Source: Sporosarcina trichiuri (GTDB lineage Bacteria; Bacillota; Bacilli; Bacillales_A; Planococcaceae). Taken from it: a stretch of DNA of 64,000 bases. The DNA is taken from assembly GCF_030406775.1 (NCBI RefSeq), contig NZ_CP129119.1, positions 1-64,000 of the forward strand. Direction: 5' to 3'. Of this stretch, positions 22,547 through 45,942 are shown in pieces. The translations under genes were made by a program, and so were the position numbers. The stretch's first letter is position 1. Each line of letters begins with the position of its first letter. The notes beneath the pieces were generated by a model. It was not told the DNA's origin, searched no databases, and worked only from the letters and a program-made list of their open reading frames with translations.

Positions 22547-22550
22547 TTCA

Positions 22551-22775: not shown

Positions 22776-22869
22776 CCCCTCGACTTTTTCGCTCTCTTGA
22801 AGTCGTTAAAGAACAAGGCAAACACCCTACCGTGCCGTTGCACGTAAAAAGCGAATAGGAGGAAGCAGC

Positions 22870-23457: not shown

Positions 23458-23472
23458 GAAAGGAGCATTTAC

Positions 23473-23784: not shown

Positions 23785-23811
23785 TCTATCAAAGAATGGA
23801 GCGAAACAACT

Positions 23812-24834: not shown

Positions 24835-24848
24835 AGGAGTGAAACCCC

Positions 24849-25004: not shown

Positions 25005-25016
25005 GGAGGGGCCGCA

Positions 25017-25361: not shown

Positions 25362-25362
25362 G

Positions 25363-28020: not shown

Positions 28021-28036
28021 CTAGGAGGTGGATTGA

Positions 28037-28507: not shown

Positions 28508-28533
28508 TAGACCCAAAAGGAGGAAGTTTGTAG

Positions 28534-28935: not shown

Positions 28936-29120
28936 TTGACGGAGGGCCGGATGACATCAGTTCGGAAGCGGTGCTCGCGCATTACGCCTTGCACGAACTG
29001 CAGATTCGACCCTCTGAACTTTTCAATATGGAACGCAAAGAGAAGGCGTTCGTCTATGCCAGTATCCAGGTGAGAATCAAGGAAGAAAAGCGGCAGCAGA
29101 AAAAAGCGAAGAAAAAGTGA
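28932..29120 (+). CDS. Frameshift extension of the tail chaperone (gpGT-like)
   Basis: In the -1 frame after the heptamer at 28926-28932, 62 codons are open up to TGA 29118-29120 (LIDGGPDDISSEAVLAHYAL... ending Lys-rich). No good start codon with a ribosome site exists in this frame, so it is only reachable by -1 frameshifting, giving a fused protein encoded at 28534-29120. This copies the conserved gpG/gpGT arrangement that controls tape measure assembly. Confidence 0.8.
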   Translation, partial: LIDGGPDDISSEAVLAHYALHELQIRPSELFNMERKEKAFVYASIQVRIKEEKRQQKKAKKK

Positions 29121-29168
29121 AACTTCTTCCGGTCTTCGGGTGTATACTTGAGCAAAGGAGGAATTCAC

Positions 29169-29378
29169 ATGATTCTCGTCTTTATCCTGCTCGGACTTTT
29201 CTTTTTACTGGTGGCGATCATGCTGCCGTTCGCGATCATCAAGATGGCCGTGACCAAGCCAGTGGCGTGCCCGCAGTGCGGCACACAGCTGAAGCTCATC
29301 TCGAACACCGGTAAGTGCACTCGCTGCAAAGCGAAACTATATAAGCACATGGACGGCGACTACCGTCTCCGCGCGTAA
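29169..29378 (+). CDS. Membrane-anchored zinc-ribbon protein
   Basis: ATG 29169 behind AAAGGAGGAATTCAC gives 69 residues. Residues 3-27 form one hydrophobic membrane helix; the C-terminal half is a CPQCG...CTRCK zinc ribbon. Such a gene between the chaperone and tape measure is unusual and may be a morphon (an extra gene with its own terminator), since a hairpin follows at once. Confidence 0.7.
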   Translation: MILVFILLGLFFLLVAIMLPFAIIKMAVTKPVACPQCGTQLKLISNTGKCTRCKAKLYKHMDGDYRLRA

Positions 29379-29407
29379 GCATCCGACAGCTCGGGTGCTT
29401 TTTATTT
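29379..29407 (+). terminator. Intrinsic terminator after the zinc-ribbon gene
   Basis: Stem GCATCCGA/TCGGGTGC (29379-29386; 29391-29398; one T-G pair), loop CAGC, then TTTTTTATTTT. Confidence 0.7.
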
Positions 29408-29432
29408 TGCACAGAAAGGCAGGTGAGGATAC

Positions 29433-32273: not shown

Positions 32274-32965
32274 GCTATGGAATCTATCTGAGTGCAAAGA
32301 ACGACAAGGAAGGGTTCCGCCTGCCGATCAATCCGGAGGAAGTCAGGGTGACCCGGTCAGGGGACGGAGAGACGTTCAAGATTGCCCGTCTCGGCTCGGT
32401 CAATGTCCCGAAAGCGCCGGACTTGCAAGAGTTCGAGTTCGAGTCGTACTTCCCTGCCGAACCGACGCACTACAGCGAGACGGACTTCCTTCCGCCGCAG
32501 TACTATATCGATAAACTGAATAGCTGGTTGGATGCCCGAGAGCCGATACGTTACATTTACGTAAACGGTTCTTTTTCGATCAACGAGAAAGTTACGATCG
32601 AGGACTTTGAGTATTCGGAAAGCTACGGGACGGCAGACGTCGACTTCTCGATTGAACTGAAACGGTACGTTGACTTTGGGCCGAAACAGCTCAAGATCGA
32701 GAAGCCGAAAACGCCGACCGCAGCGAAGAAGCCTGCAAAAGCAACTTCATCGAAGAAACCTGCGCGGCAGACGCAGAAGGTCGTGCCCCAGACATACGTG
32801 TTGGTGAAGGGCGACAGCTTGTGGAAAGTGGCGCAGAAGTACACGGGGAAAGGCAACAACTATCCTGCGCTCGCCAAGCTGAACAACATCAAGCCGAGCC
32901 AGTACCGGCGTCTGCCGATCGGGTTGAAATTGAAAATCCCGCCGGAATGGACCAAGAAAAAGTGA
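32270..32965 (+). CDS. LysM-containing tail protein (XkdP-like)
   Basis: A 231-residue protein. The first 140 residues match the XkdP type baseplate proteins (INPEEVRVTRSGDGE, FPPEPTHY-like FPAEPTHYSETDFL). A Lys/Pro/Ala linker follows, and the last 55 residues are a LysM domain (YVLVKGDSLWKVAQKYTGKG). LysM would bind peptidoglycan at the tail tip during DNA delivery. Starts within the tape measure stop. Confidence 0.88.
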   Translation: MSYGIYLSAKNDKEGFRLPINPEEVRVTRSGDGETFKIARLGSVNVPKAPDLQEFEFESYFPAEPTHYSETDFLPPQYYIDKLNSWLDAREPIRYIYVNGSFSINEKVTIEDFEYSESYGTADVDFSIELKRYVDFGPKQLKIEKPKTPTAAKKPAKATSSKKPARQTQKVVPQTYVLVKGDSLWKVAQKYTGKGNNYPALAKLNNIKPSQYRRLPIGLKLKIPPEWTKKK

Positions 32966-32976
32966 GGTGAGCGGAC

Positions 32977-33936
32977 ATCGAACTCCTGATAGACAACCGT
33001 GACGGGAAGGTCTGGGACATGCCTGTCCGCTCCGTCACTTGGAAAACGGACCGGCTCGGCAAAGCCGGAGAGACGGAAGCGGAAGTCGTCAACCCGGATC
33101 CGCTGAAGTATCCGATCAACAACGGGGCGGTCGTCCGGATCAAGGACGGCGACCAGAAAATTTTCTACGGCTTCGTCTTCAATGTGAAAGGCGGGCGGGA
33201 AGACACCGTTACCGTCAAAGCCTACGATCAGCTGAAGTATCTGATGTACAACGACACGTTCGTGAAAAAGAAAATGCCCGCTTCCCAGGCCATCACGGAG
33301 ATCCTGAAAAAGTACAACTGCGTGGTCGGCAGTATTGCGGGTACGCGTGTCGTCCTTCCGGCTATCGTCGAGGACGATAAGAAAGCGCTGGATGTGATCA
33401 CGCAGTATCTGGATAATACGCTGACGGCGACGAACAAGATTTACGTACTGTTCGACAACTTCGGCAAGGTGGACTTGATGCTTGCCGACAACATGCGGAT
33501 CCGACCAGAAGACTTTTACATCGGCGAGGACAGTCTCCTCTACGATTACGAGTATGAAGCCTCCATCGATGACGACACCTACAACCAGATCAAGCTCGTC
33601 CGTGACAACGAAAAGAAGTCAAAGCGTGAAGTCTTCATCGCTAAAGACTCGAGCACCATCGCCAAGTGGGGCATGCTCCAGAAGTTCCGGAAAGTCGACG
33701 ACAGCATGAAAGACGCAGCAGTCAAACAGCTGGCCGAGAATCTGCTGCAGCTTCACAACCGGGAGAAGAAGTCACTCAAGCTGTCTGCGATCGGCAACTG
33801 GCGAGTGCGAGCCGGGCGCTTCATGTACTTCCGCATCGATAAGTACGGCATCAACCGGTACTTCCTCATTGACGAGGTCGAGCATGAATGGAAAGAGGGT
33901 GTCCATACGATGGACCTGAAAGTGAGTGTGTTCTGA
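32977..33936 (+). CDS. Tail hub protein (XkdQ-like) with probable AUC start
   Basis: The first normal start (ATG 33019) would drop a conserved N-terminus. Upstream in frame the sequence reads ELLIDNRDGKVWDM after an ATC at 32977, with GAGGTGAG about 6 bases before it; XkdQ homologues begin in this way. CTG 32986 is another option. The 320-residue product resembles gp27/GpD-like hub proteins at the centre of the baseplate (VTVKAYDQLKYLMYNDTFV, NRYFLIDEVEHEW). An AUC start would be rare. Confidence 0.75.
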   Translation: MELLIDNRDGKVWDMPVRSVTWKTDRLGKAGETEAEVVNPDPLKYPINNGAVVRIKDGDQKIFYGFVFNVKGGREDTVTVKAYDQLKYLMYNDTFVKKKMPASQAITEILKKYNCVVGSIAGTRVVLPAIVEDDKKALDVITQYLDNTLTATNKIYVLFDNFGKVDLMLADNMRIRPEDFYIGEDSLLYDYEYEASIDDDTYNQIKLVRDNEKKSKREVFIAKDSSTIAKWGMLQKFRKVDDSMKDAAVKQLAENLLQLHNREKKSLKLSAIGNWRVRAGRFMYFRIDKYGINRYFLIDEVEHEWKEGVHTMDLKVSVF

Positions 33937-34364
33937 TGGGCTTGCTCGAAACGATTAAACAGACGTCAACGAAAGCGGTGGCAGCCGGCAACCCGGCGCA
34001 AGTGCTGTACGGTACCGTTGAGAAAGCCGACCCGCTCGAGATCCGCATCCACGAAAAGCTGAAACTGACGGAAGAGTTCCTGGACGTGGCGAAGCATCTG
34101 ACGCGCCATGAACGGGTTGTCAGCATCCAGTACGAAAACCCAAAGACCTGGACGAAAGCCGAAATCGGCGATGCCGACAAAACGACTTCGTCCAATCAAG
34201 GGTTCTCAAATTATGAAATGAAATACGCCAAGATGATTTTTGAAGACGGCTTGAAAATAGATGATCGAGTGGTGCTGCTCCGAATTCAAGGAGGGCACCG
34301 TTTTTATGTAATCGATCGATACCGGGAGGGAGAGAACGTATGGTCCTACCCCAAGGAGAAGTAA
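33936..34364 (+). CDS. DUF2577 baseplate protein (XkdR-like)
   Basis: ATG 33936 overlaps the hub stop and gives 142 residues; an earlier in-frame start at 33888 is less likely. Features are YGTVEKADPLEIRIHEKLKL near the start and DRVVLLRIQGGHRFYVIDR near the end, as in DUF2577 proteins, small OB-like baseplate parts. Overlaps the next gene by 25 bases. Confidence 0.8.
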   Translation: MGLLETIKQTSTKAVAAGNPAQVLYGTVEKADPLEIRIHEKLKLTEEFLDVAKHLTRHERVVSIQYENPKTWTKAEIGDADKTTSSNQGFSNYEMKYAKMIFEDGLKIDDRVVLLRIQGGHRFYVIDRYREGENVWSYPKEK

Positions 34365-34753
34365 TTGTCACAGACGAACTGGACGTCCAGTCGGAAGCTG
34401 ACCTGCCGACGCTCACCTATAAGCTGGACTGGGAGCGCGGCCGGGTGACCGGCAAAATCGATCGCCGGGACGCCATGGAACAGGCCATCTACAAAGTGCT
34501 CCGCACCAAACGGTTTGCGCATCTGATTTATTCCGATGATTACGGGTTCGAAAACATGATCGGGCATGAGCGGCTGTTTGTACAGGGCGAACTGCCTCGG
34601 CGTATCAAGGAAGCGTTGCTGCAGGATGAGCGCATCACGGAGTTGCGGAACTTCCGGCTGGACTTTGAAAAAGACGAGGCATTTGTCTCGCTCACGGCCA
34701 TCACGATCTACGGCGACGTGGACGTGCTGAGAGAGGCGGTGCCGTATGTTTGA
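34340..34753 (+). CDS. DUF2634 baseplate wedge protein (XkdS-like, gp25-related)
   Basis: A 137-residue protein with the typical TYKLDWERGRVTGKIDRRDA followed by ERLFVQGELPRRIKEALL pattern of XkdS/DUF2634, related to T4 gp25, which starts sheath assembly on the baseplate. Start overlaps the gene before; the stop overlaps the next start. Confidence 0.88.
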   Translation: MVLPQGEVIVTDELDVQSEADLPTLTYKLDWERGRVTGKIDRRDAMEQAIYKVLRTKRFAHLIYSDDYGFENMIGHERLFVQGELPRRIKEALLQDERITELRNFRLDFEKDEAFVSLTAITIYGDVDVLREAVPYV

Positions 34754-35822
34754 ACACTTGACGTTTGACGTCCTGCTTGAGCGCATGCTGGACCGTGTGC
34801 CGGACGATATTGACAAGCGTGAAGGTTCCGTTATCTATGACGCACTTGCCCCGACAGCGATGGAGCATGCCGAGCTGTATGCGGCGATGGATCTCCTGCT
34901 CCAGCGTACGTTCGCCGACTCGGCAGATGGGGATGACCTGACACGACGCGTCGCGGAGCACGGCGTCTTCCGTCGACTGGCTACAGCGGCCTTGCGGGAG
35001 GGAACGTTCACTGCGAAGGATGAGCCCTTCAGTGTCCCTGTCGGCAGTCGGTACAGCCTGAGTGGAATCATCTACACGGTTGTTGAGCGCCTGTCTCCAC
35101 CAGGTCACTACAGTCTGCGGGCAGACGTAACCGGAGAAGCGGGGAACCAAGACTACGGTGAACTGGTTCCTGTCGACCAGGTAGACGGACTGGGGGGCGC
35201 AACACTTGGCCGTGTACTCATCCCCGGCCAAAACGAGGAATCAGATGAATCGCTCTATGCCCGCTACGAAGAACACCTGCGAGAGAAAGCGTTCGGCGGC
35301 AACCGGGCCGACTACAAGCATCGCATCCTCGAACAGCCAGGTGTCGGCGGTGTGCGTCTCTACCGGGCGCCTGCAGGCGGAGGAACGGTCGGTGCGACTA
35401 TCATCAGCTCCGAGTACAAAGAGCCGACAGCGGAGCTTGTGGAAGCCGTACAGACGGCTATCGATCCGACCCCGTACACCGGCGACGGGTACGGTACGGC
35501 TCCGATCGGCCATGAGGTGCTGATCACCGGCGTCATCGGGGAGCCGGTCAACTTCTCGGCAACCCTGCAGCTGTCCGGTTCGACTCTCGGCCAGGTGGAG
35601 CCGCTCGTCAAGGAGACGATCGAATCGTACTTGGCCGAGCTCCGGAAAGAATGGGCGAGGAAAGACGATCCGCTGATTGTCCGACTCATCCAGATTGAAG
35701 CCCGGCTGTTGCAGATTGATGGCATCCAGGATATCCTGCAGTCCAGCTTGAATGGGCTGCCTCAGAACGTAGTGCTGGAAGATAATATTCCGGTGCTCGG
35801 GGAGGTGGTCTTGAATGAGTAG
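34746..35822 (+). CDS. Baseplate J-like protein (XkdT-like)
   Basis: A 358-residue wedge protein. The start LLERMLDRVPDDIDKREGSV is typical for XkdT; GREADEDLR-like NEESDESLYARYEEHL and FGGNRADYKHRILEQPGVGG are baseplate J signatures; the end contains PLIVRLIQIEARLLQIDGI. It connects hub and outer baseplate (T4 gp6 equivalent). Overlaps both neighbours by 8 bases. Confidence 0.92.
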   Translation: MFEHLTFDVLLERMLDRVPDDIDKREGSVIYDALAPTAMEHAELYAAMDLLLQRTFADSADGDDLTRRVAEHGVFRRLATAALREGTFTAKDEPFSVPVGSRYSLSGIIYTVVERLSPPGHYSLRADVTGEAGNQDYGELVPVDQVDGLGGATLGRVLIPGQNEESDESLYARYEEHLREKAFGGNRADYKHRILEQPGVGGVRLYRAPAGGGTVGATIISSEYKEPTAELVEAVQTAIDPTPYTGDGYGTAPIGHEVLITGVIGEPVNFSATLQLSGSTLGQVEPLVKETIESYLAELRKEWARKDDPLIVRLIQIEARLLQIDGIQDILQSSLNGLPQNVVLEDNIPVLGEVVLNE

Positions 35823-36570
35823 ATTGTTGGATCATCTGCCTGCAGACTATCGCAAGATTCGGGAGTTCCGGAAGCTGTCCGGTTCAGTCTCGACGGAATA
35901 CGATGCTGCGGATCGTGCGTTTGAGCAGGTCGAAAATGATCAGTTCATCACTTCGTCATCCGAACCAGCCATCGCTCGACGAGAGAAGCCTTTCGGTATT
36001 GTGCCAGACTTGACGGTAGAGACTCTGCCCTTTCGGAAACGTCGGCTGCTCGCCCGGATGCAGGAGAACGTCCCCTATGTGGTCGAGTATCTCCGGGAGC
36101 TGCTAGACAGTCTGCTCGGCGGTCGCTTGACCGAGATTGAACTGGACTCGCTGCTGTTTGAAATGGAAGTGCTGGTCTACGTGGAAAGTGCTTCCTTTTA
36201 CCGCGAGGTCGAGAAGCTGCTGGAACGGATTGTCCCGTTGAACATTGACCTGACGGTCGCTGTATTGATGATCCGTGAAGTGATGGTCCTGCACTCTGCG
36301 GCTTATGCGTTCCGAGTGAAGCACAAACGGACGAACCGTTTCCGGACGGCAGCCATCCCCGGGGTGCTGCGGGAGAGCACTCAGGCGGTCTTGCATAGTG
36401 CAGATTATGCGTTCCGTGTCGAGCACCCTCGGACGAACCGGCTGAAGACACAGACGGTGCAAGGGTTGGTTGCCGACGAACAGCGGCTGTCGGCAGCTTG
36501 TGCAGGGTATGTCTTCCCTGCTCGCTTACCCGTCACCGGAAAACTAGTAGCAAGGAGTGAGAGCCGATGA
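35815..36570 (+). CDS. DUF2313-type tail protein with C-terminal internal repeat
   Basis: A 251-residue protein after the J gene, where YmfQ/XkdU (DUF2313, Mu gp48-like) proteins lie. The start SRLLDHLPADYRKIREFRKL fits. The C-terminal 90 residues hold two copies of a 27-residue unit, beginning LHSAAYAFRVKHKRTNRF and LHSADYAFRVEHPRTNRL, then a third weak one (SAACAGYVFPARLPVTGKL). The repeats may form a small beta structure for fibre attachment. Confidence 0.75.
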   Translation: MSRLLDHLPADYRKIREFRKLSGSVSTEYDAADRAFEQVENDQFITSSSEPAIARREKPFGIVPDLTVETLPFRKRRLLARMQENVPYVVEYLRELLDSLLGGRLTEIELDSLLFEMEVLVYVESASFYREVEKLLERIVPLNIDLTVAVLMIREVMVLHSAAYAFRVKHKRTNRFRTAAIPGVLRESTQAVLHSADYAFRVEHPRTNRLKTQTVQGLVADEQRLSAACAGYVFPARLPVTGKLVARSESR

Positions 36571-36887
36571 GAGGCCTGCAGGAAATCGCTGTACAGGAAA
36601 CACTGAATTACATCAGCAACATGATCAAGAGCGCGAAAGTGGTCATCGATGGCGTGGAGACCGAGTACCCGATCTGGAAGACAAAGTTTGCCGATCACAC
36701 GGTCCGGAAGTACGTCAAGCTCGGCACGGAAGCCAAAGGGCTGATCACACGGGCCGCGCTGGTCGATGCACAAGGCCGAGAGTGGGCGGTCGAGGAATAC
36801 AACTACGACAAACGGCAGGACTCGTTCATCCTTGCGTTTCCGTTCACCCAACTGATTGTCTCGAAAGAACCGGAGGTGTTTGAATAA
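36567..36887 (+). CDS. Hypothetical baseplate/fibre-linked protein
   Basis: A 106-residue protein, coupled by ATGA to the one before. It contains AKVVIDGVETEYPIWKTKFA and GREWAVEEYNYDKRQDSFIL, suggesting a beta-rich fold. Place between baseplate and fibre genes suggests a connecting role. Not recognised further. Confidence 0.6.
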   Translation: MRGLQEIAVQETLNYISNMIKSAKVVIDGVETEYPIWKTKFADHTVRKYVKLGTEAKGLITRAALVDAQGREWAVEEYNYDKRQDSFILAFPFTQLIVSKEPEVFE

Positions 36888-37459
36888 TGGTGCAGAAACT
36901 GGTCAATCCGTACGTCAAGACGGAATGGTTTGATGAAATCGAGGACCCGGTCACTGGTGAAATCCTCGAAGAAGGAACCGTCTTTACCGCTGAACGAGCG
37001 AACAATATCGAAGACGGAATCTATAATTCTTACGAGCGCACCATCCAAGCGGAGCGGGAACTGCAGCGAATCCGCGTCCAGCTGGATCTGAAAGAGCGGG
37101 CGAACAGTGAGCTGATTTTTTACGACACAATGGACGGTGAGGAGCCGCGGAAGATGGCTCTGGACACGGCACAGACTGTGGTGAAAGAAGCCCTGTCTGT
37201 CGGAGCAACCGTCCTCAACGTGGTCGATGCTTCGGCGTTCTCGCCGCTCACAGAAGTGACGGTCTTTGACGGAACGAACAGCGAGGACGCGATGATCACG
37301 GCCATTTCCGGCAACGCGATCACTGTCCAAGCGCTGACGAAAAGCTATGTAAAGGGAGCATTTATCGCCCGCACGAACGCTGTGATGGACACGGTCGCTC
37401 AGCGTCTGCAGCCGGGCCGCTGGGGAACGTACACAATTGATATGACGGAAGTCGTCTAA
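36887..37459 (+). CDS. Tail fibre-associated protein
   Basis: A 190-residue protein. The N-terminal half contains YVKTEWFDEIEDPVTGEILE, EGTVFTAERANNIEDGIY and a helix (ERTIQAERELQRIRVQLDL) as in proteins that join baseplate and fibre. The C-terminal half is beta-rich (SVGATVLNVVDASAFSPLTE). It directly precedes the DGR and could anchor target protein 2. The start overlaps the previous stop. Confidence 0.6.
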   Translation: MVQKLVNPYVKTEWFDEIEDPVTGEILEEGTVFTAERANNIEDGIYNSYERTIQAERELQRIRVQLDLKERANSELIFYDTMDGEEPRKMALDTAQTVVKEALSVGATVLNVVDASAFSPLTEVTVFDGTNSEDAMITAISGNAITVQALTKSYVKGAFIARTNAVMDTVAQRLQPGRWGTYTIDMTEVV

Positions 37460-37476
37460 GCCAAGGAGGATGCTGT

Positions 37477-37890
37477 TTGATACGAGGCAAAAGAGATAGA
37501 ACGCCAGGGGATATGGCGGTGTGCGCCAAAACGAAAGACCTGATCCGCTACACCATGCAGATCACCAACAACCCGCAGCGGTTCTCGAAGCGGGTCCGCT
37601 TTACACTGACCAATCGGCTGCAGGAAAAGGTTCTGCTGATGTACGAACAGCTGATTGAAGCAAACGAGCTGTATCCGGAGACGGCGGCCGATTTCAGGGA
37701 GCGACGCCGCCTGCAGCGGAAGACGCTTGCCCTTTGCAAGCAGGTCGCTTTCCTGATTGAGCTGTCACTGGATCAGAAACGAATCGAAGACCGGCAAGCC
37801 AGTCACTGGGCCGGTCTGGTGCACGACGTTCAAAGTTTAACAGCCAAGTGGATGCAGTCGGATTACCGGCGCTTCTCGGAGCTGGGCTGA
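37477..37890 (+). CDS. avd: DGR accessory variability determinant
   Basis: A 137-residue, highly basic and helical protein. KTKDLIRYTMQITNNPQRFSK followed by LQEKVLLMYEQLIEANELYP, RRRLQRKTLALCKQ and LSLDQKRIEDRQASHW is the four-helix bundle pattern of Avd, the pentameric partner that binds the RT and TR RNA and is required for mutagenic cDNA synthesis. It sits immediately before the TR. TTG 37477 lies at good distance from AAGGAGGA; ATG 37513 is an alternative. Confidence 0.88.
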   Translation: MIRGKRDRTPGDMAVCAKTKDLIRYTMQITNNPQRFSKRVRFTLTNRLQEKVLLMYEQLIEANELYPETAADFRERRRLQRKTLALCKQVAFLIELSLDQKRIEDRQASHWAGLVHDVQSLTAKWMQSDYRRFSELG

Positions 37891-37921
37891 CCCAACGGGT
37901 ACAGCCTGCAATGCGGAGCCG

Positions 37922-38033
37922 CGTTCCCCGAACGCCGCGAATTCGAACAACTCGCGTAACGTCAACTCTTCAGGCACGTTGAACAACAACAACGCCTACA
38001 ATGGGAACAATGGCGTCCGTCCCGATCTGAATC
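37922..38033 (+). repeat. DGR template repeat (TR)
   Basis: A 112-nt non-coding template between avd and RT, aligned without gaps to VR1 and VR2. Read in the frame of the VRs it contains 13 AAC/AAT codons (32 adenines in all), the classic design in which A-to-N changes at AAY give many amino acids without stops. The 3' end (CCCGATCTGAATC) differs from the CCCGCTTTGAATC of both VRs, fitting IMH* versus IMH. The TR RNA is presumably reverse transcribed by the adjacent RT. Confidence 0.95.
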
Positions 38034-38150
38034 CACTTGCCGACTGAGTAGGCTTCCGGGCCGAAAACACAAGATAGCTTTGACGATTCAAAGGAGGCTG
38101 TATCCGGCGCTACGGCGCGAACACATATTCACTGATGCGGAGGTTTTCAT

Positions 38151-39305
38151 CTGAATATCAAAGCTAGAAACGGTGATGAGTTCGACCGCTTCTCCAGTTT
38201 CTCGAGCCTGTACCAAGCGTACAAGGACTCGAGAGCGGGCAAGCGCTGGAAAAATGCAACAAACCGTTTTGAGATCAATGCGCTGGCGGAACTGAAAAAG
38301 CTGGAGCGCGATCTGGCTGCCAGCCACTACCGGATGGGCGGGTACAACGTCTTCCGGATCTATGAACCAAAGGAACGCATCATCAAGTCCATCCAGTTCC
38401 GGGACAAGGTCGTTCAGCGTTCGCTCTGTGACAACGTCCTGGAGCCAGCGTTTGAGCGGTCTTTTATCTATGACAGCTACGCTTGCCGGAAAGGCAAAGG
38501 CACGCATGCAGGACTCAACCGGACCTGCGAGTTCCTCCGTCGCCATTACCGACAACATGGAACAGAAGGTTGGATCTTGAAGTGCGACATCGAGAAATAC
38601 TTTGATTCCGTGCCGCATGAAATCTTGAAGAAGATGCTTCGGAAGTATATTCACGATGAACGGGTGCTCCACTTATTGGACGCCATCATCGATTCCGCCT
38701 CCGGAGATCGAGGGCTTCCACTCGGCAACCAGACAAGCCAGTGGCTGTCTATCCTCTTCCTCAATGATTTCGACCACTTCATCAAAGAGCGGCTCGGCGT
38801 CAAAATGTATATTCGATATATGGACGATTTCGTTCTAATCCATCCGGACAAGAAGTTTCTGCAGGACTGCAAAAGGGCCATCATCGACTACCTGGGCGGC
38901 CTGGAACTGGAATTGAACGGAAAGTCGCATATCTTCCCGCTGAAGAATGGCGCAGACTTCCTCGGTTTCCACCTGTATCTGACGGAAACCGGAAAGGTCA
39001 TTCGAAAGGTTCGGCATGACAGCATCAAACGGATCAAGCGAAAGCTGAAGAAATTCAAAGTCTTGTATGAAACCGGCGTCATGTCACAGGAAGACATCGA
39101 GCAGGCATACGGCAGCTGGAAAGCGCATGTCGCACATGCGAACAGTTACTACCTGATCGAAGAAATGGACAAGCGCTTCCATCGAATTTTTGAAGGGGAT
39201 GAACTGAATGGCACAACTATTGAGCGCACTGCCCGTCGGGGCAAAGGTGAAAGACCCCGCCTCGACGTATCACGGCAAACCGTTAATCTGGCAAGTCGCG
39301 GATAA
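38151..39305 (+). CDS. DGR reverse transcriptase
   Basis: The first ATG (38334) would remove conserved sequence; the frame continues upstream with LYQAYKDSRAGKR..., typical of DGR RTs, to a CTG at 38151 behind GGAGG. The 384-residue product has YMDD at residues 223-226 and LGNQTSQ at 191-197; the GxxxSQ form in place of QGxxxSP separates DGR enzymes from retron and intron RTs. It copies TR RNA with errors at adenines. The last 32 codons overlap the start of target gene 2. Confidence 0.92.
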   Translation: MNIKARNGDEFDRFSSFSSLYQAYKDSRAGKRWKNATNRFEINALAELKKLERDLAASHYRMGGYNVFRIYEPKERIIKSIQFRDKVVQRSLCDNVLEPAFERSFIYDSYACRKGKGTHAGLNRTCEFLRRHYRQHGTEGWILKCDIEKYFDSVPHEILKKMLRKYIHDERVLHLLDAIIDSASGDRGLPLGNQTSQWLSILFLNDFDHFIKERLGVKMYIRYMDDFVLIHPDKKFLQDCKRAIIDYLGGLELELNGKSHIFPLKNGADFLGFHLYLTETGKVIRKVRHDSIKRIKRKLKKFKVLYETGVMSQEDIEQAYGSWKAHVAHANSYYLIEEMDKRFHRIFEGDELNGTTIERTARRGKGERPRLDVSRQTVNLASRG

Positions 39306-40977
39306 AAATCACGCCGGGTATCCGGCAAGCTCTGTCACACTCCTCACCGAGAAGATTATCTCGGTTAAGGCGTTTGACGCCAAGGAGCCGACGAACGCGG
39401 ACGCTAACCGAAAATCTTACGGGAACAACCGCTACAAGGATTCCAATCTGCGGCAGTGGCTGAATAAGGACACGATGTCCTGGTACGCCGCACAGCACGG
39501 AGCGGATGCGCCGCCGAACACCGCCGGTGTCTCGACCGATCCGTACGATACGGAGAAAGGGTTCCTCGCGAACTTCTCAAAAGCGTTTCGGGATCGTATC
39601 TTGCCGACTGCGTTGACAGTGGCGCGGAACACCGTCACAGACGGCGGGGGCAGTGAATCTGTCACCGACAAGGTGTTCCTGCTGTCGAATACGGAAGTCG
39701 GACTGGCGAACGAGAACAGTATCGCCGAGGGCAGTAAGCTGGCACTGTTCACGACAGACGCTTCCCGGGTCGCCAAGCCGACAGCTGAAGCTGTGTCGAA
39801 CGCGGTCTATACGAACGCTTCGTTCAACGCGTCTGCCGGATGGTACTGGTGGCTCCGTTCCCCGTACGCCGCGAATTCGGGCAGCTCGCGTGTCGTCAAC
39901 TCTTCGGGCGCGTTGAACAACTACTTCGCCTACTATGGGTACGGTGGCGTCCGTCCCGCTTTGAATCTGCCATCTGAAATCCGAGTATCGGATTCTCCGG
40001 ATACAGATGGGGCCTATGTACTCACATTTAATGCACCTCCGACGGTCACCTTGGACGAGCCCGACGGCCGCACCTTGTACGAGGGAGATACGGTCAACCT
40101 GACCGGTCAAGCGGTTGATACGGACGCAGGAGACGTCGTCAGCGTCAAATACTCCGTCGATAACGGCACAGAGCGCACTCTAGCTGCTGGGGTCTCAGAC
40201 GGCAGCACGCCCGTACCGTACAGCAAGACGCTGAAGTTCTCGAACAGCAAGCTTCTGGACGGCGCTACGGCTGTCACAGACGCTCTGGCTGAAGGAGTTG
40301 CACATACGCTGCGCGTCTGGGCGGAAGACGACAAAGGTGGAAAATCGACCGTCCTGACCCGCACGTTCCACATCGTTGCGAATCGTCCGCCGACCATCCA
40401 AGTGGATGCGTTCGAACGGAAGACCGGTGTCATCGAGTCCGAGCTGATTACGGTCTCCGGCTCCGTCAACGATCCGGACGGCAACGACGTCACGCTGCGC
40501 TACAAGCTCAACGGCGGCAGCTTCGTCCAGGTCTACTCCGGCGCTTCCGGACCGTTCAGCTTCACACTACCGGTCAGCTCCCTCATCGACGGTGCGAACA
40601 CGCTGACGCTCCAGGCGCTCGATACGTACAACTTCACGGCGCAGAAGTCGTTCCGGATCCAGCGCGACTTCGCAGGCGCAGAACTCGCTGAAGCGGTAGC
40701 TCGGTACAAACTGCTGCCGTCCACTGGTGAAGCATCTGGTCTTGTCACGTGGATCGAGCGAGACACGACTGGAACCTTGTCAGCCGAAATCTCCATGACG
40801 GATGAAGCCGCGGCAGAGTCCTTCCAAGCGATGCCGAACACCAACTCGGTGGAGCTGATCAGCGGGCTGACAGAAGACGAGTTCGATCACGTCGAGCTGG
40901 CACCGAAAAAGAAAATCCTGTTGAAGCTGACGTCGACCAAAGCAATCGCGAAAGTATCCGGCGCCTTCCAGGCGTAA
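39208..40977 (+). CDS. DGR target protein 2, tail-fibre-like with Ig-like domains
   Basis: A 589-residue protein. Residues 1-270 form a DUF6273/C-type-lectin-like domain homologous to target 1 (LPVGAKVKD, SYGNNRYKDSNLRQWLN, WWLR...GVRPALNL); VR2 covers residues 217-253. Residues about 275-400 and 400-490 look like two Ig/cadherin-like domains (PTVTLDEPDGRTLYEGDTV; PPTIQVDAFERKTGVIESE), followed by a C-terminal beta domain. It is likely the receptor-binding fibre, diversified to follow host surface changes. The ATG lies within the RT gene behind GAAGGGGATG. Confidence 0.88.
   Translation: MAQLLSALPVGAKVKDPASTYHGKPLIWQVADKNHAGYPASSVTLLTEKIISVKAFDAKEPTNADANRKSYGNNRYKDSNLRQWLNKDTMSWYAAQHGADAPPNTAGVSTDPYDTEKGFLANFSKAFRDRILPTALTVARNTVTDGGGSESVTDKVFLLSNTEVGLANENSIAEGSKLALFTTDASRVAKPTAEAVSNAVYTNASFNASAGWYWWLRSPYAANSGSSRVVNSSGALNNYFAYYGYGGVRPALNLPSEIRVSDSPDTDGAYVLTFNAPPTVTLDEPDGRTLYEGDTVNLTGQAVDTDAGDVVSVKYSVDNGTERTLAAGVSDGSTPVPYSKTLKFSNSKLLDGATAVTDALAEGVAHTLRVWAEDDKGGKSTVLTRTFHIVANRPPTIQVDAFERKTGVIESELITVSGSVNDPDGNDVTLRYKLNGGSFVQVYSGASGPFSFTLPVSSLIDGANTLTLQALDTYNFTAQKSFRIQRDFAGAELAEAVARYKLLPSTGEASGLVTWIERDTTGTLSAEISMTDEAAAESFQAMPNTNSVELISGLTEDEFDHVELAPKKKILLKLTSTKAIAKVSGAFQA
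39856..39967 (+). repeat. DGR variable repeat VR2 (adjacent)
   Basis: Aligned without gaps to the TR, it has 17 differences; 16 lie at TR adenines and the only other (C to T at 39961) lies in the 3' IMH part. Changes include A to T, A to G and A to C, e.g. AAC to GGC, GTC, TTC and TAC. One of the 16 (GAT to GCT) also lies in the IMH and is shared with VR1, so it may be fixed rather than mutagenised. Confidence 0.95.
39978..39994 (+). other. Hairpin just downstream of VR2
   Basis: A perfect 7-bp inverted repeat with 3-nt loop (AATCCGA-GTA-TCGGATT) starts 10 bases after VR2. In the Bordetella phage DGR a similar hairpin/cruciform downstream of VR is needed for efficient homing; here the role is by analogy. 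Confidence 0.55.
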
Positions 40978-40989
40978 GAAAGGGTGACG

Positions 40990-41220
40990 ATGATGGCAGA
41001 ACCATTAGTGACTCGCAAGCGCCTCCCGGACGGTACGTTCGGTGGGCCCGAGAAGCACTTTGCTTCCAGCGGCGAGACCAGCAAAGAGCGGATGGAACGG
41101 CTCGATGCCGACAACGCAACGCTGGTATACGAGAACATGATGAAAGACTTGAAAATCGAAGAGTTGTCAGACGGCCAAGCCGATCTGATCTACCAACTGA
41201 TGCAGAAAGGTGTGTTGTAA
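40990..41220 (+). CDS. Small tail-fibre-linked protein
   Basis: A 76-residue protein behind GAAAGGGTG; ATG 40990 and 40993 are both possible. It begins AEPLVTRKRLPDGTFGGPEK and ends with a helix (LSDGQADLIYQLMQKGVL). Located between the fibre and XkdX genes it may be a fibre accessory or chaperone. Not otherwise recognised. Confidence 0.6.
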   Translation: MMAEPLVTRKRLPDGTFGGPEKHFASSGETSKERMERLDADNATLVYENMMKDLKIEELSDGQADLIYQLMQKGVL

Positions 41221-41221
41221 A

Positions 41222-41374
41222 ATGGATTGGTTTAAAACGGTGAAGCGTTTCTATCCGAAATACTGGACGGCGTCGATGGTCGGGGATGCGGTGATCGCCA
41301 AAAAGATCACCGAGGAAGAATATAAAGAGATTGTCGGGGTCGAATACCCGAACATTCCAGAAGAGACTCAATAA
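41222..41374 (+). CDS. XkdX family protein
   Basis: Fifty residues starting MDWFKTVKRFYPKYW and ending KKITEEEYKEIVGVEYP, the XkdX pattern found at the end of PBSX-like tail modules. Function unknown. It starts one base after the previous stop and is followed by a terminator. Confidence 0.85.
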   Translation: MDWFKTVKRFYPKYWTASMVGDAVIAKKITEEEYKEIVGVEYPNIPEETQ

Positions 41375-41376
41375 TG

Positions 41377-41408
41377 AAAGGCGCCTTCCCTGGCGTCTTT
41401 TTCTTTTT
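41377..41408 (+). terminator. Intrinsic terminator after the tail operon
   Basis: Stem AAAGGCGCC/GGCGTCTTT (41377-41385; 41392-41400; one G-T pair) with a 6-base loop and TTTTTCTTTTT. Marks the end of the tail/DGR transcript. Confidence 0.8.
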
Positions 41409-41437
41409 GCAGATCCAGTCGCAATAGGGGGTTCAAC

Positions 41438-41698
41438 ATGAGTGAGAATTGGAAAATGGAGCGTCTGGAGAAAGAGCTGTCCCGCCAGGAGAACAGGCTC
41501 GATCGTCAAGACGAGAGGCTCGATAAGCTGGAAGTGTTTATGGTGAAAACCATCGAGCAGCTCAAGACGATCTTCGAGCGTCTGAAAGAGATTGAGAAGA
41601 CTAGCAAGTGGGTCTCTCAATCTTTTTTCTATCTGATCCTGTCCGGCGTTATCGGCGCCGGCTTCTTTTTCTTCCAGTGGCTTATCACATCGAGGTGA
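41438..41698 (+). CDS. XhlA-like lysis protein
   Basis: An 86-residue protein: a charged coiled coil (residues 1-55, repeating LDRQDERLDKLE) followed by one transmembrane helix (FFYLILSGVIGAGFFFFQWL). This is the layout of haemolysin XhlA, which works with the holin and amidase in PBSX lysis. Confidence 0.8.
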   Translation: MSENWKMERLEKELSRQENRLDRQDERLDKLEVFMVKTIEQLKTIFERLKEIEKTSKWVSQSFFYLILSGVIGAGFFFFQWLITSR

Positions 41699-41702
41699 CC
41701 TA

Positions 41703-42137
41703 ATGAACAAGGAACAAGAGCTGGAACAACTGGTGCAGGAAGTCAAAGCGATTACCATCAACGTGCCGCCGCTGTTCGAGCTGTTCGTGACACTCTTCAG
41801 CATCCTGACATCGATCGTACTGTTTGCCTATCCGGATATGATCTACAGCTATCCGGCACGGTTGTACACGCACATGATGTACCTGATGCCGCAGTACGTG
41901 TGGGCGTTGTGCTTTTTTGTCGCCTGTCTGCTCAAAGCCGTCGGCCTGCTGGTCGGCATCAACTGGCTGCGCATCGTCGGGCTGCTTGGCAGTGCGGCGC
42001 TCTACATCGCACTGACCGTCTGTTATGCGATTGACTTCCCGAGTCTCGGAGCGATCACGTTCTCCTGCATGACGATTTTTACGATTTTGAGCATCCCGCT
42101 CGTCAAGCATACGACGATCCGACACAAGGCAGAGTGA
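41703..42137 (+). CDS. Multi-pass membrane protein of the lysis region
   Basis: A 144-residue protein with four probable transmembrane helices (about residues 24-44, 60-80, 85-105 and 112-135) and a short charged N-terminus. It lies between XhlA-like and holin genes, so a lysis or superinfection role is possible. No family recognised. The second iteron element follows. Confidence 0.6.
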   Translation: MNKEQELEQLVQEVKAITINVPPLFELFVTLFSILTSIVLFAYPDMIYSYPARLYTHMMYLMPQYVWALCFFVACLLKAVGLLVGINWLRIVGLLGSAALYIALTVCYAIDFPSLGAITFSCMTIFTILSIPLVKHTTIRHKAE

Positions 42138-42160
42138 GACCAAAAGACTACAGGTTCACC

Positions 42161-42458
42161 GTCAACAATGTCAACAAACCTTTGTCGACGGTGAAAAGTT
42201 TGTTGACGCTAATCTGCCCAGCGTCAACAATGTCAACAAACTTTTTCGTATTGTTGACACCTATTGTTGACGCCTTCAAGCCTTGGGGCTGTAGGGCTCA
42301 ACCCCTACCGTCAACAATGTCAACAATATATACTATAAAGTAGTATCAATATAAGAGATTAAGGGCGCGTATACCCGTATATACGTATAGGGCGCCTTTA
42401 ATCTCTTATTTCCATACAGAAGGTGAGAAAGTGCGTTGACATGGTTGACATGGTTGAC
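42161..42458 (+). repeat. Iteron-rich non-coding element, copy 2
   Basis: The 396-bp gap (42138-42533) contains many GTCAACA/TGTTGAC motifs (for example 42161, 42170, 42201, 42223, 42232, 42252, 42265, 42310, 42319) and ends with three GTTGAC(A/G) at 42435-42458. Bases 42221-42346 match 15899-16024. A long inverted repeat follows (42351-42368 with 42391-42409). A short frame at 42134-42343 overlaps the repeats and is not considered a gene. Confidence 0.7.
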
Positions 42459-42533
42459 GCCTATTTTCTTCCATAGGGTAACCGGGACGTTTTGCCTGGT
42501 CTGCGCCACGGCACTATGAAAAGGAGTGAGGAA

Positions 42534-42785
42534 ATGACAGCTGATAAGCTGAAACAGTATATCGGATTGTTCGGAGGGCTGCTGTCGGCAGTCCTTTTGT
42601 TTTTGGGGACTCTCAATGTCCAGTTTGAGTGGTTCAACGTGGACAGCATCGATGCCTTTATCGGGGTGCTGATTGCTGCCGTACCATTCATCTTGTTGAT
42701 TTACGGTGTGTACAAGAACAGCTACATCGTGACGGATAAAGCGAAGAAGCAGGAGAACGAACTGAAGCGCAGGGGGTTGAAGTGA
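42534..42785 (+). CDS. Holin (SPP1 type)
   Basis: ATG 42534 behind AAAGGAGTGAGGA gives 83 residues with two transmembrane helices (LFGGLLSAVLLFLGTLNV and FIGVLIAAVPFILLIYGVY) and a Lys/Arg-rich C-terminus, the Phage_holin_4-like SPP1 pattern. It would open the membrane for endolysin release. The endolysin starts 2 bases after its stop. Confidence 0.85.
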   Translation: MTADKLKQYIGLFGGLLSAVLLFLGTLNVQFEWFNVDSIDAFIGVLIAAVPFILLIYGVYKNSYIVTDKAKKQENELKRRGLK

Positions 42786-42786
42786 G

Positions 42787-43707
42787 ATGCTCACAATCAA
42801 AAATCATCTCGTCACACCATCCATCGCCAGCCGGGTGACATCGCCTGGCCGCAACACCTGCGAGTACATCACCGTCCACGAGACAGACAACACAAGCCGC
42901 GGAGCAGACGCAAACGCTCACGCCCGGCTGCAGGCGTCCGGAAACAGCCGGCAGGCATCCTGGCACATCACTGTGGACGACAAGCAGGCCATCCGCTCAT
43001 TCGACGACTCGGCCATCTGCTGGCATGCCGGAGCAAAGGCGCCGCGGGTATCCGGCAATCCACGCTCGATCGGCATCGAAATCTGCGTCAATGCGGGTGG
43101 TAACTATGGACAGGCTGTTGAAAATGCCGCGCAAGTGGTCGCGCAGCTGATGCAGGCGCACAATATCCCGATCGGGAAAGTCGTGCAGCATAATCACTGG
43201 TCCGGCAAAAACTGTCCGCGGCACTTACGGGCGGACGACCGTGCAGTCAGCTGGGGTAACTTTAAGAGCAAGGTGTCAGCGTACCTATCCGGCAGCACAT
43301 CCACAGCGGCCACAGGCGGCGCTTGGCACATCGAGTACGGCGACAGTGGGGCGAGAGTGCTCGAACTGCAAAAGGCGCTGAATACGCTCGGCTACAAGGT
43401 CGCAGAGGACAGCCAGTTCGGTCCTTCGTTGAAAGCGGCACTGATGGCCTGGCAGAAGGCCGAGGGGCTGACGATCGATGGTATGTACGGACCGACCGGA
43501 CAGAAGAAGATGGCCGAATGCCTGGCCGCGAAAAAGAAGGAGGAGACTCCATTGAGCGAACAGAAAAATGCCGCACCGTCAAAGTCACTGGCTGCAGACG
43601 TAGCCCGCGCGAAGGAACTGGGCATCACAGACGGCACATACCCGCATCGCCCGGCGACCCGCGAGGAAGTGGCCGCGATGATCGTGCGTGCCGTTGATAA
43701 GAAGTAA
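42787..43707 (+). CDS. Endolysin: amidase_2 with peptidoglycan-binding domain
   Basis: A 306-residue N-acetylmuramoyl-L-alanine amidase. Catalytic domain at about 10-150: YITVHETDN, SWHITVDD, WHAG and HNHWSGKNCPRHLR supply zinc ligands and the active site. A PG_binding_1 domain follows (GDSGARVLELQKALNTLGYK). The last 40 residues (RAKELGITDGTYPHRPATRE) look like part of an SLH-type motif. It cleaves host peptidoglycan at lysis. No signal peptide, so it depends on the holin. Confidence 0.92.
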   Translation: MLTIKNHLVTPSIASRVTSPGRNTCEYITVHETDNTSRGADANAHARLQASGNSRQASWHITVDDKQAIRSFDDSAICWHAGAKAPRVSGNPRSIGIEICVNAGGNYGQAVENAAQVVAQLMQAHNIPIGKVVQHNHWSGKNCPRHLRADDRAVSWGNFKSKVSAYLSGSTSTAATGGAWHIEYGDSGARVLELQKALNTLGYKVAEDSQFGPSLKAALMAWQKAEGLTIDGMYGPTGQKKMAECLAAKKKEETPLSEQKNAAPSKSLAADVARAKELGITDGTYPHRPATREEVAAMIVRAVDKK

Positions 43708-43712
43708 ACAGG

Positions 43713-43758
43713 AAAGCCCTCTCATCCATATCGGACGGGAGGGCTTTTTTTTTTTATT
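43713..43758. terminator. Terminator between endolysin and the convergent gene
   Basis: Stem AAAGCCCTC/GAGGGCTTT (43713-43721; 43739-43747) with a 17-base loop and an 11-T tract; the A-rich left side may also serve the convergent minus-strand gene that ends at 43754. Confidence 0.8.
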
Positions 43759-44377
43759 TATTCCATTGCCGTATCACAAACTCACTCACCGTATCCTGCA
43801 CCCGCTCCGCACCGACTCGCACCTCATCCACGAGATAGGAGAGCAGGGCTGCATACGAGATTCGCTCACTATACGGATTGTCGGCATTGATGTACTTCAG
43901 CACTCGCCGCAGGTCCCGCATCCGTTCCTCATCCACATTCTCTTCCAGGTAACTCCGCACGAAGTCATTGACGAAATCCACATCCCGCACCGTCGCATCG
44001 ATCAGCAGGGCAGCCGCGCGGGAGACAGAGCAGCCCATCGCATAGGCGACACCCTCCAGATCGTTGTACATATCCTGCGTCACTCGCGTGGAGATGCGGA
44101 CCGTCTTCCCGGATGCACCCCGGCGACCGACCGGCACTCGGTCTGGATCGCCCAAGTAAACGACCTGCCCAACGCGGACATCCCTCAAAAAATATTGCGA
44201 CAGGTGACTGAGTGGCCGTTTGCGTTTGGACCCGTCCAGCAGCACCGCTTCGATGACATCCTTGACCGGGGTATCCGTGATGAACGACAGGCGATAGATG
44301 CAGTCACGCAAATCGAGGGGCACTGTCGGTTTGACATCCCTCTTCTTATCGCTGCGGATCTTCCTCTCCCCCACCAC
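43754..44377 (-). CDS. Ribbon-helix-helix-like DNA-binding protein
   Basis: A 207-residue protein on the minus strand, GTG start behind GAGGAGGAAAAG. TVRISTRVTQDMYNDLEGVA followed by MGCSVSRAAALLIDATVRDV (residues about 92-132) looks like a ribbon-helix-helix DNA-binding unit. The N-terminus is Lys/Arg-rich. It is read towards the lysis genes, divergent from parM. Possible roles: plasmid-type copy or partition control, or repressor of the par cassette. Family uncertain. Confidence 0.6.
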   Translation of the reverse strand: MVGERKIRSDKKRDVKPTVPLDLRDCIYRLSFITDTPVKDVIEAVLLDGSKRKRPLSHLSQYFLRDVRVGQVVYLGDPDRVPVGRRGASGKTVRISTRVTQDMYNDLEGVAYAMGCSVSRAAALLIDATVRDVDFVNDFVRSYLEENVDEERMRDLRRVLKYINADNPYSERISYAALLSYLVDEVRVGAERVQDTVSEFVIRQWNK

Positions 44378-44465
44378 TTTTCCTCCTCAAATCACGTTTT
44401 ATTCCCTGTACAGTGTCCTTGTGTACCAGGGATATCACTATACGGCAGCAGGGGAGGGGATATGC

Positions 44466-44555
44466 TCACTTCTTTGGTTTCTTCTTTTTCTTCAGCGGAA
44501 TGCCATATTTGTTGGCGTTCTTGATGATAGTTGCTGCCGTTTCCTTCTTACTCAT
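44466..44555 (-). CDS. 29-residue basic peptide
   Basis: On the minus strand, an ATG behind AAAAGGAGTGATCGG opens 29 codons: SKKETAATIIKNANKYGIPL followed by a run of Lys. The strong ribosome site supports it as a gene. The basic tail suggests nucleic-acid binding or a toxin-like peptide, but nothing specific can be said. Confidence 0.5.
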   Translation of the reverse strand: MSKKETAATIIKNANKYGIPLKKKKKPKK

Positions 44556-44621
44556 GCCGATCACTCCTTTTCGAGTAATCTGCCCTGTCCAGGAATATTT
44601 TATACACGGCTGCCGTAGGAT

Positions 44622-44680
44622 GTATTACCAACGCAATACACAGCAGCCGGCAGGGGCCGGATTTATTACCTGCGTAATAC
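44622..44680 (+). promoter_or_regulatory. Paired operator-like palindromes before parM (candidate parC)
   Basis: Two related sites 41 bases apart: GTATTACCAACGCAATAC (44622-44639) and TTATTACCTGCGTAATAC (44663-44680); the second contains the perfect TATTAC-CTGC-GTAATA (44664-44679). They end 16 bases before the parM start. In ParMRC systems ParR binds repeats upstream of parM to form the centromere and repress transcription; that role is by analogy. Confidence 0.55.
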
Positions 44681-44696
44681 ATGGGAGGTTTTATAG

Positions 44697-45557
44697 ATGA
44701 GCAAATTGATCCTCGGCATCGATGCTGGCAACCACACCGCAAAGGTAGCAGGGCCATATGGGATGGACTCGTATCGCACAGCAATCTGTGACTGGTTCGA
44801 GCGAGACATCGTAGAGTCGCACGGCGCGGACGATATGGAGTTTGAAATTGACGGCCGAAGAGGGTACGCGGGCACCATCGCTGTTTACGAAGATGAGTTC
44901 GGCGGAACAGGGATGTACGGTGACACAAAAGCACATGAGGACACAAAGATTCGTGTGCTGCTCGCCATCTATCGATACGGCCAGAAGTACGGAATCGACA
45001 TTTCAGAAGTTGCGGTAGTAACGGGGCAGCCGATCGTCTCGCATAAACCGGCCGAGAAGACGGCCATATCGGAAATGCTCACAGGAACGCACAGCCTGAC
45101 TGTCAATGGGTACGAGACAGCTATCACCATTACTGATGTCGGCATAGCAGCAGAGGGGGCAGGGGCGTTCTGGGCGGCTCCTGCAGGTGGCACAATCCGT
45201 GTGATCGATGTCGGCAGCGGTACGGTCAATGCGGCCAGTATCGTCGATAAACGGTACATCAACAATGCCAGTGATACGTTCAACTTTGGTATGGAAACGG
45301 TCAACAACAAAAACGATCTGGCCGCAGTTGCCCGTGCGATCGCGCGAAACACGTCCCGGCTAAAGTGGCACCGCAATGATCGTGTGCTGTTGTGTGGAGG
45401 GATTGCGGCGGATCTGTACCCCCACATCCAGACGCACTATGGGGCCGCCGAATTGATGCATCCTGTGTTGCAGGAGGGTAATCATGTAACGGTCGCAGAA
45501 CCTGTCTTCGCAAACGCCATCGGTTTCTACAAGCTAGCCCGGATGAGTTTTGCATGA
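44697..45557 (+). CDS. parM: ParM-like actin ATPase for DNA segregation
   Basis: A 286-residue actin/Hsp70-fold protein. Phosphate motif 1 is ILGIDAGNHTAKVAG (residues 4-18), phosphate motif 2 is IRVIDVGSGTVNAAS (about 167-181) and the adenosine motif is VLLCGGIAADL (about 234). ParM filaments push plasmid copies apart; phage versions position phage DNA. It ends in an ATGA overlap with parR. Together they form a plasmid-type segregation cassette at the prophage end. Confidence 0.85.
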   Translation: MSKLILGIDAGNHTAKVAGPYGMDSYRTAICDWFERDIVESHGADDMEFEIDGRRGYAGTIAVYEDEFGGTGMYGDTKAHEDTKIRVLLAIYRYGQKYGIDISEVAVVTGQPIVSHKPAEKTAISEMLTGTHSLTVNGYETAITITDVGIAAEGAGAFWAAPAGGTIRVIDVGSGTVNAASIVDKRYINNASDTFNFGMETVNNKNDLAAVARAIARNTSRLKWHRNDRVLLCGGIAADLYPHIQTHYGAAELMHPVLQEGNHVTVAEPVFANAIGFYKLARMSFA

Positions 45558-45793
45558 GTCGGCGGATCAAGCCGGTCAGTTTTAGCCTGGTCAGCGAGTA
45601 CGATGCCCGACTGCTTGCCTATGCAGAGGATCCAGCACGGGGGAATTTTAGTCAGTATGTCAAGCGGCTCATAGATGCTGATATATCTAAAGGGTCCCAG
45701 TCGGCGGAGATGGTTGCTGCGGTTGCACCTCCGGCCCGTCCGGCACCGGTTGCCCAGGAGGATGATCGAGATGCGATGAGTGGGTTTCTATAG
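45554..45793 (+). CDS. parR: ParR-like centromere-binding protein
   Basis: A 79-residue protein translationally coupled to parM. The first 50 residues (KPVSFSLVSEYDARLLAYAE, then SQYVKRLIDADI) match a ribbon-helix-helix DNA-binding domain as in ParR; the rest is an Ala/Pro linker with an acidic end that could contact the ParM filament. It should bind repeats near parM. Confidence 0.75.
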   Translation: MSRRIKPVSFSLVSEYDARLLAYAEDPARGNFSQYVKRLIDADISKGSQSAEMVAAVAPPARPAPVAQEDDRDAMSGFL

Positions 45794-45797
45794 GAAA

Positions 45798-45823
45798 AAG
45801 CCGTCTGCTTATGCAAACGGCTT
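45798..45823 (+). other. Hairpin after parR; candidate prophage-chromosome junction region
   Basis: The inverted repeat AAGCCGT/ACGGCTT (45798-45804; 45817-45823) lies just after parR but lacks a T tract. The gap 45794-46115 contains this hairpin, the terminator at 45943, and no gene. The attachment site may be in this gap, but with only one end visible it cannot be located. Confidence 0.4.
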
Positions 45824-45942
45824 GTCGAAATATGTTGCTGGAAAGTGTCAACACATGTCGAGTGCGTGGCCCGGATCGAGCTGCGGTAAATCGTCGTCAG
45901 CAGGGTGATGAGATTCGTTTAAGTCGTAAGATGTATATGCAG

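Follow-up and report, generated by a model that had tools for sequence, protein, structure and literature searches.

A probably complete tentaclin-type diversity-generating retroelement, with a likely second target, in a contractile-tailed prophage of Sporosarcina trichiuri

The window analyzed here, a stretch of 64,000 nucleotides of Sporosarcina trichiuri (contig NZ_CP129119.1, positions 1 to 64,000), contains what is very likely a complete and probably working diversity-generating retroelement (DGR) of the tentaclin type, carried by a contractile-tailed prophage. The cassette, examined over 36800-41600, lies on the forward strand in the order avd, template repeat (TR), reverse transcriptase (RT), target 1. 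It combines a TR and a variable repeat (VR) that differ at TR adenines with an RT of the DGR lineage, an accessory Avd protein recognized by PHROG 3206, and a target in which an N-terminal DUF6273 domain, with the VR near the 5' end of the gene, is followed by Ig-type domains, a tentaclin-type feature. An initial annotation made from the sequence alone had placed avd, TR, RT, and a target with a variable repeat (VR2) at these positions and read them as a complete DGR. All of the parts are there, the target being a DUF6273 protein, and completeness is supported by the adenine-confined differences between TR and VR2, the Avd family match, the DGR-type RT, and the pattern of variation among homologues.

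TR (37922..38033, its 112 nt defined by the match to VR2, with 32 adenines) and VR2 (39856..39967, in frame within target 1) form the single family of 112-nt direct repeats between 30000 and 46000. The 2 copies are 85% identical and 1,934 nt apart, and VR2 is identified by the repeat search, by its alignment to TR, and by homologue variation. Their ungapped 112-nt alignment has 17 mismatched positions, of which 16 are TR adenines and one is a C to T change, the same counts as in the initial annotation; random placement would put at least 16 of 17 differences on adenines with P = 9e-10. That annotation had also assigned the one non-adenine difference to the 3' homing signal, and C106T does sit in the 3' tail of VR2 (39946..39966, the GVRPALN codons), but so does one of the adenine differences, A104C. 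Both changes are common to VR1, a second variable repeat described below. The A104C codon encodes Ala in all 21 target-1 rows and all 17 target-2 rows of the homologue comparison, C106T is synonymous, and T stands at position 106 in 3 of 5 relatives' TRs. The tail is near-invariant among homologues and is the likely initiation of mutagenic homing (IMH) site, and A104C and C106T are probably a fixed IMH/IMH* difference rather than products of mutagenesis. Over TR positions 1-103, VR2 differs at 15 of 29 adenines and at none of 74 other bases (P = 1.9e-10), which implies that the last transfer was too recent for ordinary mutations to have become visible. Replacing adenine by any base creates no stop in any of the 18 adenine-bearing TR codons, a property equalled by 282 of 4,855 shuffled stop-free TRs.

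The RT (38151..39305, 384 aa) matches RVT_1 (E=1.3e-21) and PHROG 1423 (E=1.2e-124), and it has the YMDD and GxxxSQ motifs that had been reported for it, the latter as LGNQTSQ. The form [IL]GxxxSQ is found in 13 of 13 DGR rows as well as in the window RT, and all 11 group II and retron rows read QGxxxSP. Among solved structures the best match is 8ub7 chain A (151 bits, E=3.2e-43), listed simply as 'Reverse transcriptase' and which we take to be the BPP-1 enzyme; the best group II enzyme scores 56 bits and retron Eco8 21. On the NCBIfam group II intron model the RT reaches 130 bits against a cut-off of 300. PADLOC matches it to many RT models, the best being a general one, and gave no match for target 2 or Avd. 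A phylogeny, which the initial annotation had named as a check, places the window RT with DGR RTs and apart from retrons and group II introns. In this tree of 25 rows (planned rows retron_L061, DGR_L012, and DGR_L013 were dropped because they had no open reading frame, ORF), the window and 13 DGR rows form one set with support 97/96, within which the window belongs to an 11-row set (100/97) of Bacilli, gut-phage, and Faecalibacterium-phage rows, and the group II rows (92/90) and retron rows (100/100) form sets of their own. The tree program marks the placement of 3 long branches (Shimadzu, BPP-1, and one retron) as unsure.

The RT frame has no ATG, GTG, or TTG before 38334. The likely ribosome-binding site, a GGAGG at 38139..38143, is followed at 7 nt by a CTG (38151) that aligns with the ATG of the Geobacillus RT; the RT thus seems to start at this CTG, which is rare in bacteria, and the database ORF P0094 (323 residues, as from 38334) would be 61 residues short. 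The avd gene (37477..37890) has a TTG start and encodes 137 aa that match PHROG 3206, 'Avd protein of DGR', with E=3.1e-20. As a separate observation on RT homologues, P0138, P0196, P0202, P0206, and P0208 carry RT and DUF6273 Pfam domains in one ORF, and P0196 has DUF3310 in addition.

Variation of VR2 itself was replaced by a comparison of homologues of target 1 and target 2, with codons that have A at position 1 or 2 in TR counted as A codons. For target 1 (21 rows), mean entropy is 2.2 bits at the 17 A codons, 0.5 at the 19 other VR codons, and 1.1 over the remaining 552 positions of the protein (A versus non-A codons, P = 8e-6). Target 2 (17 rows) gives 2.1, 0.5, and 1.1, respectively (P = 2e-5), P0016 being left out since its C-terminus is out of step with the other rows. 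Both P values are only a guide, because the rows are related and include the window sequence, and the test presumes that the homologues' TRs have A codons where the TR of this cassette has them. In the tail, the GAT and AAT codons are alike in 21/21 and 20/21 target-1 rows and in 17/17 target-2 rows, as expected of a homing site. Alignment A1 comprised 18 of 93 listed homologues, A2 21 of 120 (P0229 and P0233 skipped for length), and A3 12 of 120 together with the window.

Gene order and domain content make the cassette tentaclin-type, a kind already described in gut phages. Target 1 (39208..40977, 589 aa) has matches to PF19789 (DUF6273, E=5.2e-42), to PF17957 (E=4e-10), and to PHROG 10993 'Hoc-like head decoration' (E=1.7e-97). 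The initial annotation had considered the placing of the target after the RT unusual, which is true in relation to BPP-1 but not within the clade of this cassette, where TR-RT-target is the standing arrangement. The order avd-TR-RT-target, with avd either matched or annotated, is found in L018, L019, nd12, FP_Brigit, and FP_Toutatis, and TR-RT-target also in nd4, Lelie, L025, L032, and L033 (L019 and L023 have identical BLAST rows and were counted as one locus); relatives with the same arrangement have clean TR/VR pairs. TR-RT-target has been published for tentaclin DGRs (PMC10743442), and a general survey describes DGRs as without strict order, with VR-TR-RT in 56.6% and several VRs in about one seventh (PMC3521204). 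BPP-1 shares avd, TR, RT, and the adenine pattern, has a lectin-type target as this cassette probably does, and differs in that the target precedes avd, the VR lies at the 3' end of mtd, and one VR matches TR. The RT/target overlap has the 98 bases previously given for it but is not special, since overlaps of 16, 11, and 10 nt occur in nd12, nd4, and Lelie; FP_Brigit and FP_Toutatis have short gaps instead. The overlap is long here because the RT tail is longer, and the PHROG match of the RT stops at residue 352, near the start of target 1. Long RT tails are also present in P0096 and P0097.

The closest described systems are similar in most of these respects. The tentaclin DGRs of nd4 and nd12 share the TR-RT-target 1 order, a target 1 with N-terminal DUF6273 and Ig-type domains, and a distant second DUF6273 target with its VR at the 3' end; they differ in belonging to gut phages and in that both of their VRs are clean, while VR1 here is not (PMC10743442). 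The window RT is 52% identical to that of nd12 and 40% to that of nd4. FP_Brigit and FP_Toutatis, phages of F. prausnitzii, share avd-TR-RT followed by a 'Hoc-like' DUF6273 target (PMC5883640), and in FP_Toutatis an early DUF6273 gene contains a further clean VR. Their RTs are 39-42% identical to that of the window, and FP_Brigit showed one VR in the 50 of its 61.7 kb that were covered. Locus L009 of Geobacillus proteiniphilus has an RT that is 67% identical, followed by a DUF6273 target, but the TR-like stretch before its RT (5770-5895) is unmatched elsewhere in the draft genome and the VR-like stretch of its target (7716-7823) is without a TR; the TR-like stretch is possibly a swapped template. 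A literature search found no paper joining 'diversity-generating retroelement' with 'Sporosarcina'.

If the cassette works as in other DGRs, TR RNA would be reverse transcribed by the RT together with Avd, with adenines misread, and the cDNA would replace VR2, homing through its 3' tail. The tail-fibre slot of progeny virions would then display versions of target 1 that differ in their binding surfaces. VR1 was probably written by this TR lineage as well; it lies in a second DUF6273 protein encoded in the replication arm.

This protein, target 2 (6412..7323, forward strand, 303 aa), contains DUF6273 only (PF19789, E=1.9e-24), and its gene is flanked by those of a sigma factor and a family A DNA polymerase, from which small ORFs separate it. 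VR1 (7144..7255, forward strand) is near its 3' end and differs from TR at 25 positions, 16 of them adenines (P = 2.6e-5). For a possible donor of VR1 we compared 5 of 10 aligned relatives' TRs, those with at least 75 of 112 bases identical, of which 2 look identical; this comparison had no chance control. At 7 of the 9 non-adenine differences (positions 4, 48, 49, 50, 81, 99, and 106), the VR1 base, or a change from A, is found in at least 3 of the 5 relatives' TRs; position 93 disagrees with them and position 3 is unclear. Positions 48-50 read GGA in 4 of the 5 relatives, TTC in the TR and VR2 of the window, and GGG in VR1. Read most simply, the last writing of VR1 used an older allele of TR and that of VR2 the present allele, so that VR1 seems to carry the older allele and not to have been fully rewritten. 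VR1 would record a TR change that VR2 followed and show the order of the transfers. A TR-like match at contig position 3050261, considered as a fourth copy, is VR1 again, because the 2 ends of the contig share 13,374 identical bases.

Homologues of target 2 are found in Cytobacillus firmus and Sporosarcina contaminans on contigs of 97,727 and 125,605; contigs of the same sizes are listed as carrying RT or target-1 homologues and are probably the same contigs. Among viral contigs, 2 loci match the target-2 alignment, at 41% and 32% identity. Separately, the target-2 homologues P0090, P0091, and P0093 have TIR domains joined to DUF6273, and the large Bacillus phages AR9, PBS1, Goe21, and BpSp encode proteins 28-31% identical to target 2.

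Second VRs were also sought in 18 loci picked from matches to the window RT, and so not a random sample, in 2 runs with slightly different limits on non-adenine differences in 50-nt windows. Besides the window, 11 of these loci have at least 30 kb of phage, several being cut at one end. A distant second VR is present in 7 of these 11, namely nd12, nd4, FP_Toutatis, Lelie, Shimadzu, FP_Lagaffe, and L064. The best windows of these second VRs have no non-adenine differences, or one in nd4, and that of nd12 is clean in its 3' part only. Among the same loci of at least 30 kb, no second VR was found in FP_Brigit, phiARM81mr, L033, or BalMu-1; at most one VR was found in each of the 6 smaller loci, and one in the whole genome of G047. 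Given their similar gene maps, FP_Toutatis and Lelie probably do not count as independent cases. The first target precedes the RT in Shimadzu, Lagaffe, and L064, which shows the second-target pattern to be wider than the tentaclin type. The second targets neighbor a DNA polymerase III subunit gene in nd4, a 3'-5' exonuclease in Lagaffe, and a methyltransferase and Erf in Shimadzu; that of L064 is about 0.4 kb from a primase-like ORF, and in Toutatis, Lelie, and nd12 the arm that carries them also has genes for replication initiation or DNA modification. Two targets were reported in 39 of 54 nd4-like genomes (PMC10743442), which indicates that the second target can be lost.

Several observations weigh against a complete, working DGR with 2 targets. 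Avd scores 31.5 bits (E=1.6e-7) on the NCBIfam Avd model, under the cut-off of 80, and gave only chance matches to PDB sequences. The CTG start of the RT may mean low expression. An RT match at E <= 1e-60 was found in 2 of 261 family genomes, the window's own and G047, and a second copy of the prophage was not found among them. AlphaFold models of both targets, built from shallow alignments of 18 and 21 rows, have much of the predicted lectin domain including the VR below a predicted local distance difference test (pLDDT) score of 50. A hairpin or cruciform behind the VR is required in BPP-1 (PMC3240598); when 15 sites behind VRs were folded and judged by eye without a control, no shared structure was evident. 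For VR1, the adenine share of differences is 64%, and the relatives' TRs are poorer donors than the present one (21-31 non-adenine mismatches versus 9). With regard to G047, its open RT frame is 356 aa and the match itself contains stops, which presumably lie where the match overruns the gene.

Some of these points would fit a cassette that is a relic, having written VR2 in the past and no longer working, and the incomplete rewriting of VR1 by the present TR would fit as well as the CTG start. All of the frames are open, and the absence of non-adenine differences from VR2 upstream of the tail places the last transfer too recently for ordinary mutations, which makes decay an unlikely explanation. 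Slightly less likely still is that VR1 belongs to a paralogous domain that is no DGR target and resembles TR through shared descent of the protein family. The VR1 differences fall short of the 75% on adenine required of secondary targets in PMC8144416, and our strict scan did not recover VR1. Its adenine bias is nevertheless significant, target-2 homologues vary at the codons with TR adenines and hardly between them, VR1 agrees with relatives' TRs at most of its non-adenine differences, and the related second targets of other phages are clean. Finally, the idea that the RT is a group II, retron, or defence enzyme and that the repeat pair arose by gene conversion or duplication can appeal to the generic RT models that match it but is practically eliminated by the adenine confinement, Avd, and the solved-structure ranking, and is already contradicted by the RT motif and tree.

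The authors of the tentaclin study propose a part in host-cell binding for target 2 (PMC10743442). The position of target 2 and its fusion in nd12 to a DUF3310 domain (also noted in PMC10743442) speak rather for a role inside the cell, which the authors of the Quimbyvirus study suggested for their second target (PMC8008677). The Quimbyvirus DGR also has 2 targets, lectin-type as those here probably are, one structural and one judged non-structural, and differs in that its second target lies in a defence-like island and its RT is in overlapping frames (PMC8008677). It is possible, though we put this forward only tentatively, that one TR has 2 jobs, diversifying a virion adhesin and also a small intracellular lectin-type protein from the replication arm that would be an early effector (for example versus host factors or defence) rather than a receptor binder. 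This design would be shared by the window, nd12, nd4, Toutatis, Lelie, Shimadzu, Lagaffe, and L064, with one of the jobs being abandoned in this prophage. The 'variable region 2' of BPP-1 in the early gene bbp36 was considered as a precedent and rejected, as it encodes short tandem repeats in which no TR match was found. The cassette itself is one more phage DGR in a Bacilli-type host and its interest centres on the second target. The recurrence of second DGR targets among DNA-metabolism genes bears on the question of whether host attachment is all that DGRs do for phages.

The carrier prophage is about 48.8 kb and looks intact. It is absent from the same-species genome G271, and this clean empty site means that gain and loss of the prophage can be studied. 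Its right-hand 45.9 kb occupy 1..45861 of the window, and the remainder, from 3040115 on, is at the far end of the contig, which is circular. Compared with G271, the left host flank ends at contig position 3040115 and the right begins at 45851 of the window; the 2 matches overlap by 11 bases in G271, and the junction bases are similar, not identical. The contig is an untrimmed circle, with 1-13374 identical to 3043114-3056487 (13,374 bases), so that genes there are counted twice. At the left end of the prophage are a CI-like repressor and an integrase that also matches a DNA-invertase family, and its other genes include those for DNA polymerase, primase/helicase, terminase, portal, capsid, sheath, tail protein, tape measure, and baseplate. 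Target 1 follows the baseplate and gp48-type genes and stands ahead of an amidase.

Some smaller features remain to be described. Immediately 3' of VR2 on the forward strand is an inverted repeat, CCATCTG...CAGATGG (39970..40010), of uncertain role, whose counterpart was not seen by eye in most related targets. AlphaFold lectin folds have been reported for the DUF6273 domains of nd4 and nd12 (PMC10743442). A PDB search with the target-2 model gave a best E of 0.56, and a viral structure search with target 1 gave Bacillus phage G gp424-427 on top (27-29% identity, TM-scores 0.12-0.24), which we did not use as evidence. The gp48-type tail gene contains a 54-nt direct repeat, 78% identical, at 36285-36338 and 36387-36440, which is unrelated to TR and VR2. 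An actin-like gene (ALP_N, partition-type) at 44697-45557 adjoins the right end of the integrated prophage.

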